Source of the DNA: Sulfurifustis variabilis
Lineage (GTDB): Bacteria; Pseudomonadota; Gammaproteobacteria; Acidiferrobacterales; Sulfurifustaceae
Length of the DNA stretch: 64,000 nucleotides
Reading direction: 5' to 3'
NCBI RefSeq assembly: GCF_002355415.1
Contig: NZ_AP014936.1
Span: 1,426,001 to 1,490,000, forward strand
Part shown: in pieces, positions 25,502 to 27,973 of the stretch
How the letters are laid out: every line of letters starts with the position of its first letter
Numbering within the stretch: position 1 is the first letter of the stretch
Translations under genes and position numbers: made by a program
The notes under the pieces: model-generated
Told to the model about the DNA's origin: nothing
Databases searched by the model: none
Seen by the model: only the letters and a program-made list of their open reading frames with translations

Positions 25502-25593
25502 GGAGAGATGGCCGAGTTGGTCGAAGGCGCACCCCTGCTAAGGGTGTATACGCCAAAAGCGTATCGAGGGTTCGAATCCCTCTCTCTCCGCCA
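25502..25593 (+). tRNA. tRNA-Ser (GCT)
   Basis: A 92-base class II tRNA with encoded CCA. Acceptor GGAGAGA pairs with TCTCTCC at 25583-25589, discriminator G at 25590. The anticodon loop CTGCTAA reads GCT. A long variable arm and the T arm GAGGGTTCGAATCCCTC are present. The last 25 bases of gene plus flank (25575-25599) are repeated exactly at 25746-25770 inside a structured repeat. Confidence 0.95.
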
Positions 25594-25611
25594 TCCACGC
25601 ACAAGAGGAAT

Positions 25612-25770
25612 CGACAGCGCAGAGCCTCTTGAGTGGACCAAAAGTGGAGGCGAACCCGAGTAGAGGGTTCGACAAATTCGCCGGGAGCGAATTTGAGCGC
25701 CGCGAGAGCGGCGACCCGGAGGGCGGAGTGCAGGACGCACGGAGTAATCCCTCTCTCTCCGCCATCCACG
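25612..25770 (+). repeat. tRNA-tail hairpin repeat, Ser-type copy
   Basis: The unit core runs 25651-25764. Helix H0 joins CGAACCC (25651-25657) and GGGTTCG (25665-25671), leaving the T-loop half GTTCGA. Then come H1 with stem AAATTCGC, loop CGGGA (25682-25686) and stem GCGAATTT; H2 CGCCGC with loop GAGA; a short CCC/GGG hairpin H3; and H4 GTGC with GCAC (25728-25740). GAGTA leads into the tRNA-Ser 3' tail ATCCCTCTCTCTCCGCCA at 25747-25764 and six more flanking bases. The four-hairpin insert thus splits a copied T arm between TTCGA and ATCCC. Arg-type copies at 27.6-27.9 kb share the same layout. Confidence 0.85.
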
Positions 25771-25786
25771 ATAATGCCGTTTCCAC

Positions 25787-25863
25787 GCGCCCGTAGCTCA
25801 GCTGGATAGAGTACCTGGCTACGAACCAGGCGGTCGGGAGTTCGAATCTCTCCGGGCGCGCCA
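25787..25863 (+). tRNA. tRNA-Arg (ACG)
   Basis: A 77-base tRNA with encoded CCA. Acceptor GCGCCCG pairs with CGGGCGC at 25853-25859, and the anticodon loop CTACGAA reads ACG. The T arm is GGGAGTTCGAATCTCTC. From the anticodon loop to CCA (25816-25863) the sequence is repeated exactly at 27510-27557, marking an insertion into this tRNA gene. The tRNA's own terminator now lies 1.7 kb downstream. Confidence 0.96.
25816..25863 (+). repeat. Left attachment-site copy (tRNA-Arg 3' half, 48 bp)
   Basis: Identical over 48 bases to 27510-27557. The identity runs from the anticodon stem to CCA, the usual crossover zone for tyrosine recombinases in tRNA genes. Confidence 0.85.
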
Positions 25864-25924
25864 TTTTTCAAAAACTTAGCGCGCGGTTTTGCTAACTTTT
25901 TGCACACCCTGTGACATTCCCCGG

Positions 25925-26299
25925 CTACTGTGACATTCGATTGTACTTCCGAGCGTTCACAGTGGCGGGAAGCACTTGCAGGTTCTCGGGCACGTGCAAG
26001 CCGCACACATCTTTCCCTTGCAGCGGAATGACGTGATCGACGACGTACTCGGTCGTCTTCAGTAGCCGGCCACGTCGCCACCTGCGTGCGCCCCGTGTCA
26101 GGCGCGCAGCCTCTTCGTAGCTCGCCTCGATCGCTTTCTTGTCGGCCCATGCGGGGGTCGCTTGGCGCAGCCGCGTGGCGCGCCGGCGGTCGCCCGATTG
26201 CTTTGGCGTGAGCGGCGACGCGTCCTCAGTCGGTTGGTTTAAGAGCTCCGCCAGCCAGGGCGGGCAAGGGAGCGGCTTTACAACAAGAGCGGGTTCCAT
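25925..26299 (-). CDS. HNH endonuclease, phage-type
   Basis: The 124-residue protein has a basic N-terminal half and a C-terminal HNH motif. [20 protein letters not shown] is followed by [15 protein letters not shown], giving the D-H, N and N residues expected of the family. Similar small HNH proteins occur in phages near terminase genes or as free-standing nicking enzymes. It is encoded just inside the left boundary of the tRNA-Arg insertion, reading toward the boundary. The ribosome-binding site is weak. Role in the element is unknown. Confidence 0.75.
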
Positions 26300-26328
26300 G
26301 CCGCTCAGAAAATAGCGCCCTGCTCTTC

Positions 26329-26355
26329 GGGGCTGCAGAAACCGGCTGCAGCCCC
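26329..26355. promoter_or_regulatory. Perfect 10-bp palindromic hairpin in a divergent promoter region
   Basis: GGGGCTGCAG at 26329-26338 is matched by CTGCAGCCCC at 26346-26355 with a 7-base loop. It lies between the divergent HNH gene and the gene at 26408. It could be an operator or a small terminator; the plus strand has TTTTT a few bases later (near 26363). Confidence 0.4.
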
Positions 26356-26407
26356 GGTGGCGTTTTTGGTCAACTCATAGCCTCGATCCTCGGGCTAGGG
26401 AGGGCCC

Positions 26408-26716
26408 ATGGCGACCAAAAACTACACCACGGAGTGGCTCGTCCTGCAGGTGAAAGACGTGAAGGCCTACGTGATCAACATCTGGGACCGCAACGACGTC
26501 TTGGCGGACGTGACGATGGGCGCGATTCGGGCGGCGGTGAACGGCCTGACGTACGCCGAGCTCGTAGCACAGCCGCCGGAGCCGCAAGTGCTTGACGCGG
26601 TGCGCCGCGAGGTAAACCAGTTCGGGTTTAAGCTCCATAAGATCACGTTCTCTGACTTGGGCCGGGTAAAGTCACTTCGGCTGATTCAGCACGCGGCGGA
26701 CAAGCTCGACAACTAG
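26408..26716 (+). CDS. Small protein, possible SPFH/band-7 domain fragment
   Basis: The 102-residue product has an ATG with GGGAGG upstream. Its pattern resembles the C-terminal part of SPFH/band-7 (stomatin-like) proteins: VLQVKDVKAYVINIWDRNDV, then ADVTMGAIRAAVNGLTYAEL, then REVNQFGFKLHKITFSDLGR. Full SPFH proteins are over 250 residues with an N-terminal membrane anchor, which is absent here. The resemblance is suggestive only. The 3' end overlaps the convergent lipoprotein gene by 4 bases. Confidence 0.55.
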   Translation: MATKNYTTEWLVLQVKDVKAYVINIWDRNDVLADVTMGAIRAAVNGLTYAELVAQPPEPQVLDAVRREVNQFGFKLHKITFSDLGRVKSLRLIQHAADKLDN

Positions 26717-26913
26717 CTGCCCCACCAGCGGTAGCCCTTGTCGCGCACGCAGACGTCCACCGCGGCCCGGTTCTCCCCGCCTACTGCAAGCTCGCACTCG
26801 GCCTTGGCGCGCTGGTACTCCTCCCAGGTGGTAGGCTCCCCGTTATGCGTGAACTCCGGGCCCCGCGAGGCGCACCCCGCGAGCAAGGTGCAAAGTACGA
26901 AGACGTAGCGCAT
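26713..26913 (-). CDS. Small lipoprotein
   Basis: The 66-residue product has a short signal peptide with lipobox LLAGCAS (cysteine near residue 15), followed by a mature part of about 50 residues with two cysteines and the end RWWGS. A strong AAGGAGG lies about 12 bases upstream of the ATG. Small lipoproteins of this kind occur in phages and in accessory islands; no family was recognised. Confidence 0.65.
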   Translation of the reverse strand: MRYVFVLCTLLAGCASRGPEFTHNGEPTTWEEYQRAKAECELAVGGENRAAVDVCVRDKGYRWWGS

Positions 26914-26987
26914 GGTTCACAAGTCCTCCTTGTTATCGAAGCGGCGAAATTATGCAGCCCCGGCCGATCCACGGGCAACATCCGTTC

Positions 26988-27389
26988 ATGCACCCCAAAA
27001 CTACAGGCGACATCACAGAAGCAGCCGTTCTAACCGCGCTTCTGCAGGCTGGCAAGGCGGTCCTGCGGCCCTTCAGCGAAAACCACCGGTACGATTTGGC
27101 CATCGACGAGGGCGACGGGCGGATTTCGCGCGTCCAGTGCAAGACTGGGCGGCTCAAGGATGGGGCCATCGAGTTCAAGACGTGTAGCAGTCAGGCTCAT
27201 CGTGGGAAGGGAACGCGGGCGTACCACGGCGACATTGAGTACTTCGGGGTGTATTGCCCAGAAACCGGGCGGAGCTACCTGGTCCCGGTAACCGCGTGTC
27301 AGACTACGCGGGTCGCGAAGCTCCGGGTGGAGCCGCCGAAGAACGGACAAACGAAAGGCGTTCGTCCAGCCGCTGATTTTGAGCTGTGA
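26988..27389 (+). CDS. PD-(D/E)XK endonuclease, group I intron-associated type
   Basis: The 133-residue protein starts KTTGDITEAAVLTALLQAGK. It carries the nuclease core RYDLAIDEGDGRISRVQCKTGR, where D, then Q-C-K after the strand, gives the PD-(D/E)XK site. The family end IEYFGVYCPETGRSYLVPV and LRVEPPKNGQ is present. Relatives are homing-type or repair-type nucleases. An in-frame ATG at 26952 would add twelve residues; 26988 fits the family start better. It reads toward the right boundary of the insertion. Confidence 0.78.
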   Translation: MHPKTTGDITEAAVLTALLQAGKAVLRPFSENHRYDLAIDEGDGRISRVQCKTGRLKDGAIEFKTCSSQAHRGKGTRAYHGDIEYFGVYCPETGRSYLVPVTACQTTRVAKLRVEPPKNGQTKGVRPAADFEL

Positions 27390-27509
27390 CATTCGCGCAG
27401 CCCGTAGTGCGGAGAATCAAGCGCTTATCTCCGCGTACCATGCGGAGGAATGTCACAATCGCGCCACCAAAAACCGAATCGCGCCAGTTACTTGGCGCAA
27501 TTCGACAGA

Positions 27510-27557
27510 TGGCTACGAACCAGGCGGTCGGGAGTTCGAATCTCTCCGGGCGCGCCA
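27510..27557 (+). repeat. Right attachment-site copy (tRNA-Arg 3' half, 48 bp)
   Basis: Exact copy of 25816-25863. It ends in CCA and is followed at once by a terminator hairpin, which is probably the original end of the tRNA-Arg transcript before insertion. Confidence 0.85.
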
Positions 27558-27599
27558 ATCAATGCAAAAGGGCCCCTTGTGGGCCCTTTTGCATTGATT
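27558..27599. terminator. Long terminator-like hairpin after the tRNA-Arg tail
   Basis: ATCAATGCAAAAGGGCCC pairs with GGGCCCTTTTGCATTGAT in an 18-bp stem around a CTTGT-type loop. It contains A and T tracts on both sides and could terminate in both directions. Related hairpins follow the two Arg-type repeat tails downstream. Confidence 0.75.
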
Positions 27600-27611
27600 G
27601 ATGTACTTGTC

Positions 27612-27745
27612 GAGATTCGAACTCCCGACGAAGTCATAAGCAGTTCGACGAGCAGCGCCGGGAGCGCTGCCGAGCGCCGCGCAAGCGGCGACCCCGAAGG
27701 GGCGAAAGCGCATGGATGCGCTGAGTAATCTCTCCGGGCGCGCCA
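27612..27745 (+). repeat. tRNA-tail hairpin repeat, Arg-type copy 1
   Basis: An antisense copy of the tRNA-Arg T arm (27612-27629) precedes the sense half ending GTTCGA (27643-27648). H0 pairs TCGAACT with AGTTCGA. H1 has stem GCAGCGC, loop CGGGA (27659-27663), stem GCGCTGC. H2 is CGCCGC with GCAA tetraloop (27675-27690). H3 is CCCC/GGGG (27692-27702). H4 is AGCGCA/TGCGCT (27707-27722). GAGTA then leads to the tRNA-Arg tail ATCTCTCCGGGCGCGCCA at 27728-27745. Confidence 0.85.
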
Positions 27746-27785
27746 TGCAATAAAAAGGGCCCCTCGCGGGCCCTTTTTTATTGCA
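27746..27785. terminator. Terminator hairpin after Arg-type copy 1
   Basis: TGCAATAAAAAGGGCCC pairs with GGGCCC, a T6 run and ATTGCA around loop CTCGC, with one bulged T. It starts directly after the CCA of the repeat tail, just as the true tRNA-Arg tail copy is followed by a similar hairpin. Confidence 0.7.
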
Positions 27786-27926
27786 CGCCCGGAGAGATAA
27801 GAACTCCCGACGAAATCGTAGGCAGTTCGACCAGCATCGCCGGGAGCGATGCGGAACGCCGCGCAAGCGGCGACCCCGAAGGGGCGAAGCGCATGGATGC
27901 GCTGAGTAATCTCTCCGGGTGTGCCA
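27784..27926 (+). repeat. tRNA-tail hairpin repeat, Arg-type copy 2
   Basis: An antisense tRNA-Arg tail at 27784-27811 can pair with the sense tail. CACGCCCGGAGAGAT (27784-27798) and ATCTCTCCGGGTGTG (27909-27923) form a 15-bp closing stem with one wobble. Enclosed are H0 GAACT/AGTTC, H1 GCATCGC with loop CGGGA (27841-27845) and GCGATGC, H2 CGCCGC with GCAA (27857-27872), H3 CCCC/GGGG (27874-27884) and H4 AGCGCA/TGCGCT (27888-27903). The tail has drifted from the tRNA (GGGTGTGCCA for GGGCGCGCCA), but the outer stem is kept. Confidence 0.85.
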
Positions 27927-27932
27927 CGCAAT

Positions 27933-27961
27933 GAAAAAGGGCCCCTCGCGGGCCTTTTTTT
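27933..27961 (+). terminator. Terminator hairpin after Arg-type copy 2
   Basis: GAAAAAGGGCCCC, loop TCGC, then GGGCC and a T7 run. It follows the copy 2 tail by a few bases, as in the other Arg-type units. Confidence 0.7.
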
Positions 27962-27973
27962 GTTTGTTCGTTC

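Follow-up and report, generated by a model that had tools for sequence, protein, structure and literature searches.

What are the three multi-hairpin units that accompany tRNA genes in a 64,000-nucleotide (nt) stretch of Sulfurifustis variabilis DNA (contig NZ_AP014936.1, positions 1,426,001 to 1,490,000), referred to here as the window? A first-pass annotation had described them as a structured and conserved insertion that divides a copied tRNA T loop next to the matching tRNA, and our analysis supports that description. The units are, with near certainty, tRNA-linked repeats (TLRs) of the RtT kind. We further consider it likely, at a probability of roughly 0.7, that these TLR/RtT units are built on a mobile four-hairpin core which is a possible decoy for CsrA.

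Family and structure of the three units

All three units are on the forward strand 3' of tRNA-Ser and tRNA-Arg and share one plan. A T-arm half ending in GTTCGA is followed by a core of four hairpins (H1 to H4), by GAGTA and by the remaining T arm and acceptor strand with CCA, the T loop being split at TTCGA^ATCC. The first-pass annotation had seen this correctly (coordinates in Table 1). The H1 loop CGGGA is constant on stems that vary with compensation, the H2 loop is of the GNRA type, and each tail matches the neighbouring tRNA. A 25-nt direct repeat links the tail region of unit 1 to positions 25575-25599, and units 2 and 3 stand in tandem at a spacing of 181-182 bp.

The annotation had known of no named family for the units and had listed a match to one as an outcome that would speak against it; such a family is what we found. 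At gathering level, Rfam reported only two tRNAs in the window. At a permissive level, unit 1 aligned to positions 1-130 of the RtT model (RF00391) with 40.3 bits (genome-wide E of 3.7e-6; cut-off 45 bits) and unit 3 to the same positions with 38.5 bits. Across the genome, RtT gave seven sites at E ≤ 1, all of them below the cut-off, and the best three, all over the full length of the model, had E values of 3.7e-6, 1.0e-5 and 7.1e-5. Since the scores are under 45 bits, the units are not filed as formal Rfam members; they are of the same kind by anatomy. They are additional TLRs, and the kind itself is already known.

The anatomical comparison is with the tyrT locus of Escherichia coli, where four units, one of them annotated rttR, match RtT over its full length with 132.9-137.5 bits. 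Two of the four were inspected and read GATGAGAAGC..GGTTCGA, core, GAGTA and ATCC plus the tRNA-Tyr tail. Both sets of units lie behind a tRNA, are split between TTCGA and ATCC, end in GAGTA, enclose a hairpin core and occur in tandem (spacing of 178 bp at tyrT), and in both the tail copies the upstream tRNA, near-identically for unit 3. They differ in that the window units carry GGA loops, which the tyrT units lack, and in that S. variabilis is apparently not a member of Enterobacterales. A covariance model of the core (A1, R1; R1 hereafter), built on 12 copies of which none came from tyrT, matched all four tyrT units weakly with filters off (15.3-27.8 bits). The same model scored 72.8 bits on rrnB of E. 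coli MG1655, the rrnB copy of locus L013 being part of its seed.

The original papers on TLRs are reportedly those of Egan and Landy in 1978 and Rudd in 1999. In the portion available to us, Stenum et al. 2021 (PMC8144298) count 22 TLRs in E. coli K-12, describe the last 18-19 bp of each as a perfect copy of the 3' end of the tRNA or rRNA that precedes it, and date the first description of TLRs to 1978, no function having been assigned to them until the 2021 work on RrA, RrB and RrF. These small RNAs (sRNAs) of the rrn dual terminators share the core and its GGA loops with the window units, and the rrn copies sit between terminators; their tail, in contrast, copies the 3' end of 5S rRNA rather than of a tRNA (PMC8144298, same portion). 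The available part of a second paper (PMC7657543) mentions the RtT structure in passing. With unit 1 as a blastn query, 3562 of 5426 E. coli genomes gave matches, a count of matches rather than of inspected alignments. Blastn searches of phage and plasmid collections gave 2 and 13 records, respectively, and the two copies inspected from the plasmid collection were of the rrn type and lay between rrn terminators. An enteric-type rrn copy was seen in genome G213, which has only its class in common with S. variabilis. Separately, the core region L229:1565-1658 matched RF02902 (AaHKsRNA22) with 35.2 bits against a cut-off of 39.8, and loci L009 and L012 did so more weakly; this family may be a relative of the core.

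The structure of the core is supported by covariation, as the annotation had anticipated. Pairing held in 96.4% of the stem cells of 111 distinct cores compared with 68.5% after shuffling, and double changes occupied 587 cells compared with 152.7 (reached in 0 of 500 shuffles), slid versions giving at most 115; because the model guided the alignment, the pairing result leans towards structure. When whole units were folded, unit 3 formed a complete 16-bp outer stem (z of -7.7, 0 of 200 shuffles as good), and units 1 and 2 gave z values of -2.3 (3 of 200) and -1.0 (30 of 200), respectively. In 12 of 43 T-loop copies from many genomes, 6 nt of the T-arm half recurred exactly in inverted form, compared with 0.3 copies after shuffling and 2.9 expected from other units.

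Distribution and probable mobility of the core

The core is a short element of about 62-90 nt, and the covariance model matched it in many genomes. With R1, we found 18 cores in the S. variabilis genome itself (E ≤ 0.1), cores in 24 of 60 genomes of relatives with up to 37 copies each, and, when the survey was extended to the phylum (by inference Pseudomonadota, with Gammaproteobacteria as the class of the relatives), cores in 64 of 397 genomes, at most 12 candidates per genome being scored there under strict filters. From 85 loci we obtained 114 cores, of which 110 had flanks of at least 60 nt and distinct junctions. These 110 come from the best-scoring loci returned, not from a random sample, and 14 of them are in loci chosen for the pattern GTTCGA. 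The scan for that pattern in named genomes gave at least 118 stretches, mostly chance occurrences; 80 were taken as loci and 12 of these hold a core (E ≤ 0.01), among them loci from Pantoea, Arsukibacterium, Dyella, Marinimicrobium and metagenome-assembled genomes.

A T-loop position directly after TTCGA was found for 43 of the 110 cores by a strict pattern and for 51 by a loose one. The strict pattern omits three copies whose model start is one base early, and 11 of its 43 copies are from loci chosen for GTTCGA. Within 2.5 kb upstream of 35 of the 43 there is a tRNA on the same strand; 19 of these 35 tails match it in register at 16 or more of 18 positions, and four more do so by eye at an offset of 1-2 nt. 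Many copies thus lie 3' of a tRNA with a matching tail, as the annotation had expected. In S. variabilis, a tRNA-Ser(GGA) copy is split in its T loop, has an acceptor that decays after 11 nt and adjoins an intact copy (L009:1376-1530 and 1586-1676).

The annotation's view of the insert as a device of tRNAs did not hold in the same way. Among the 96 cores not selected by their flanks, 39 are in T loops and 57 are not (loose pattern), and the insert is therefore not confined to tRNAs, although a few of the 57 occupy a different tRNA loop or are arrayed in tandem with a copy in a T loop. Insertions were found in the anticodon loop of tRNA-Ser copies (L012, L064, L065 and L082), in a D loop in antisense orientation (L082:318-394) and in palindromic repeats such as GTTGGGGTGAACGCAGCGA^AGCCCAAC (L072), where the empty site is inferred. 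Dispersed cores also form inverted pairs and head-to-tail tandems. At five loci (L034, L035, L036, L075 and L076), cores, partly as inverted pairs, lie inside a palindromic repeat, GGTGACTTT...AAAGTCACC, that recurs in S. variabilis and in the relative G020.

The clearest case of insertion is recG of genome G011, which carries a clean in-frame core of 25 codons that is absent from nine aligned relatives. It is the one set in which filled and empty sites could be paired; 19 of 21 genomes matched recG and 12 gave loci, L248 and L253 not being caught by the pattern. A core is directly preceded by A in 86 of 110 cases and directly followed by A in 83 of 110. With an A on both sides the exact ends are ambiguous, and the insertion involves either no duplication or that of a single A. 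Taken together, the core is very probably a mobile element. It resembles repeats of the REP/REPIN type and miniature inverted-repeat transposable elements (MITEs) in being short, non-coding and hairpin-forming, in its inverted pairs and in its high copy number; it differs from them in having four hairpins with covarying stems and in that the presence of Y1 transposases does not track it. Rickettsia palindromic elements likewise insert in frame into protein genes, in another lineage and with another sequence. Hairpins as general targets were considered and set aside, the duplex energies of the flanks being no better than those of shuffled flanks. No moving enzyme was found in a search that covered Y1 and IS110 transposases only. 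In the open-access literature, with few subscription journals included, we found no published account of a mobile core dispersed in this way, of the loops that it targets or of its occurrence outside the enteric bacteria.

GGA loops, csrA and the surrounding window

We examined the loops of the core in relation to CsrA. In all three window units, GGA is present in the loops of both H1 and H4. Over the larger set, the three positions of GGA in H1 are conserved in 110, 105 and 107 of 110 cores, and H4 presents C-A-(N)-G-G-A-(N)-G on variable stems (C in 107/108, A in 105/109, G in 108/109, G in 107/109, A in 107/109 and G in 108/109). Matched as a regular expression, the H4 string CA(N)GGA(N)G was present in the 3' portion of 98 of the 110 cores, and H1 contained GGA in 107. 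The CsrA consensus is ACANGGANGU, and by sequence both loops appear to fit it. Both GGA loops are present in the rrn-type copies and in most others.

S. variabilis has six matches to the CsrA family. CsrA (PF02599) was detected in 199 of the 397 genomes, in 62 of 64 with a core compared with 137 of 333 others. In the available text of PMC8144298, RrA, RrB and RrF are transcribed, RrB binds CsrA in vitro through GGA motifs, and an RrB mutant in three GGA motifs gave no shift in the tested range. By analogy, the core RNA may serve as a CsrA decoy in S. variabilis, a proposal that we hold at somewhat under even odds. Such a decoy would share GGA in hairpin loops with the CsrB/CsrC/RsmX sponges and would differ from them in having just two conserved GGA loops and dispersed copies. 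No member of that clan was matched at its Rfam cut-off in the scanned sequence, the best being rsmX with 25.8 against 56 bits.

The order of features in the window (Table 1) is csrA, tRNA-Ser, unit 1, tRNA-Arg, roughly 1.7 kb of intervening sequence, unit 2 and unit 3, the last two followed by terminator hairpins. The annotation had placed the Arg-type units beside tRNA-Arg; their tails match it, and the 1.7-kb stretch lies between. The terminators that it reported after both Arg-type tails are visible by eye, and a pattern scan of the forward strand found the second alone. The intervening stretch (25816-27557) looks like an island, since the 48-bp 3' half of tRNA-Arg recurs without mismatch at its two ends. 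One of its open reading frames (ORFs), 26952-27389, encodes a PD-(D/E)XK endonuclease (Pfam PDDEXK_5, 4.3e-36); ORFs 25925-26299 and 26408-26716 had no Pfam match. There was no integrase among these three ORFs, the only ones of the stretch that were tested.

Table 1. Features at and around the three units, with positions in the window.
Feature	Position	Strand	Basis or remark
csrA gene, 69 amino acids	25237-25446	+	ORF; Pfam CsrA 6.3e-26; upstream of the tRNA-Ser/unit 1 cluster
tRNA-Ser(GCT), origin of the unit 1 tail	25502-25593	+	ARAGORN
Unit 1, TLR/RtT-like: GAACCC...GGGTTC T-arm hairpin, core, tRNA-Ser tail	25647-25764	+	RtT match
Unit 1 core, H1-H4, end GGAGTA, directly after GTTCGA	25673-25746	+	74 nt
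Unit 1 tail, last 18 nt of tRNA-Ser	25747-25764	+	18/18 identity
tRNA-Arg(ACG)	25787-25863	+	ARAGORN
tRNA-Arg 3' half copy, 48 nt, distal end of island-like stretch	27510-27557	+	perfect direct repeat with 25816-25863
Unit 2, tRNA-Arg type	27594-27745	+	weak RtT match; antisense T arm starts at 27612
Unit 2 core, H1-H4, end TGAGTA	27649-27727	+	79 nt; R1 84.4 bits; R1 seed member
Unit 2 tail, tRNA-Arg 3' end	27728-27745	+	18/18 identity
Terminator-like hairpin after unit 2	27746-27786	+	by eye
Unit 3, tRNA-Arg type, 16-bp outer stem 27783-27798 / 27909-27924	27776-27926	+	RtT match; fold
Unit 3 core, H1-H4, end TGAGTA	27831-27908	+	78 nt; R1 92.5 bits; R1 seed member
Unit 3 tail, drifted tRNA-Arg 3' end; 5' strand compensates the drift	27909-27926	+	16/18 identity
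Terminator hairpin after unit 3	27930-27964	+	pattern scan of the strand

Weighing the explanations

We propose that a short four-hairpin element inserts into hairpin loops, among other sites, mostly behind an A and often behind GA, and that a unit is a duplicated tRNA 3' end with this mobile non-coding element in its T loop. The element would have become fixed behind tRNA and rRNA genes. Read-through from the tRNA would carry T-loop copies into the transcript, and the tRNA-like tail could supply a processing site and leave an RNA whose 3' end is fixed; in the available text of PMC8144298, recognition by RNase E is suggested for the repeat in RrB. The likeliest activity of the released RNA would then be to offer its H1 and H4 loops to CsrA as a small, growth-linked decoy.

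Several observations weigh against this proposal. As to family, unit 2 matched RtT (model positions 1-130) with 21.6 bits and an E of 0.158, a weak match, and none of the three units reached the curated cut-off of RF00391. As to the tails, 12 of the 35 T-loop copies with an upstream tRNA show no close match to it. The antisense outer stem of the annotation is strong in unit 3 and weak in units 1 and 2, and a general stem of this kind was dropped: over the 43 T-loop copies it is weak, an outer run of at least 9 bp occurring in 7 (16%) compared with 9.2% with foreign tails. As to movement, flank-to-flank pairing, which would be expected if every target were a hairpin, did not differ significantly from that of shuffled flanks (p of 0.067), a null that is inflated because many flanks share tRNA arms. 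Two candidate drivers were rejected, Y1/RAYT transposases being present in 16 of 24 genomes with cores compared with 25 of 36 others (a hand count) and IS110 in 8 of 24 compared with 23 of 36, with none in S. variabilis. As to CsrA, the co-occurrence of core and csrA (Fisher 6.5e-19) is uncorrected for phylogeny and thus confounded. The tyrT-type copies of E. coli, including rttR (L254:1585-1652), have no GGA in H1 or H4, and CsrA binding therefore cannot define the TLR family. Genome G173, where no csrA was detected, has a single core (L233) that keeps both GGA loops; csrA was likewise not detected in G151, a 95%-complete genome from a family in which many listed members have it. The 12 seed copies of R1 are mostly tRNA-linked and GGA-bearing, a bias that inflates loop conservation and favours T-loop copies. 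Deletion and overexpression of RrA, RrB and RrF had modest effects in the same direction (PMC8144298, available portion). Finally, GGA in the loops could just as well serve a transposase as its signal in single-stranded DNA.

That last point belongs to a different explanation which we take seriously, although we would not bet on it, namely that the core is purely selfish DNA of the REP or MITE sort. Hairpins and GGA would then be sites for a single-stranded-DNA transposase, the RNA would be idle and the tRNA-linked copies merely tolerated. The many dispersed copies, inverted pairs and tandems, the A on either side of the core, the in-frame recG insertion and the core of G173 would all be expected of such an element. 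It accounts less well for the orientation of T-loop copies. TTCGAA is palindromic, yet 43 of 43 copies have the same sense as the tRNA (judged for 42 by the base before TTCGA and for L238 by its tail; 32 of the 43 from loci not chosen by flank). Conservation of the rrn copies extends to at least 31 enteric species, according to the part of PMC8144298 available, and neither Y1 nor IS110 transposases track the core.

A module for RNA processing and termination, in which the tail and terminators define the 3' end of the tRNA transcript and the core is a spacer, is improbable. Tails identical to mature 3' ends and followed by terminator hairpins are in its favour, as is the RNase E suggestion of Stenum et al. 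in the text available, but the near-invariant GGA loops and the dispersed copies are left unexplained. We give very little credence to an immobile sRNA family, a CsrA sponge inherited vertically and spread by tandem duplication: the tandem of units 2 and 3, with a spacing like that at tyrT, and the CsrA binding of RrB would suit it, whereas the clean recG insertion, the anticodon- and D-loop insertions and the dispersed copies outside T loops would not. Equally remote is a by-product of tRNA-targeting integrases, with tails as copies of attachment (att) sites and the insert as island debris. In its favour, tRNA-Arg is separated from units 2 and 3 by the island-like stretch and its 48-bp tRNA-Arg repeat; against it, that repeat begins near the anticodon loop and is without a core, cores away from tRNAs have the same ends, and the recG core has no att-like repeat.

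Taken as a whole, the interpretation of the first-pass annotation is partly supported. Under our preferred reading of TLR/RtT units built on a mobile core, the dispersed copies suggest that TLRs originated from a mobile hairpin element, and they link the tyrT-type with the rrn-type copies. We offer only tentatively the broader conjecture that a widespread mobile element gave rise both to the TLRs of E. coli and to the sRNAs of the rrn dual terminators. It would insert into loops (the T, anticodon and D loops of tRNAs and other hairpins) and carry two CsrA-binding hairpins, and would thus be a transposable CsrA decoy, at once a selfish element and a regulatory RNA. The rrnB dual-terminator segment, which is widespread on cloning and expression plasmids according to the available part of PMC8144298, contains one copy of the core. 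The reading predicts that the copies that bind CsrA would be those with both GGA loops.

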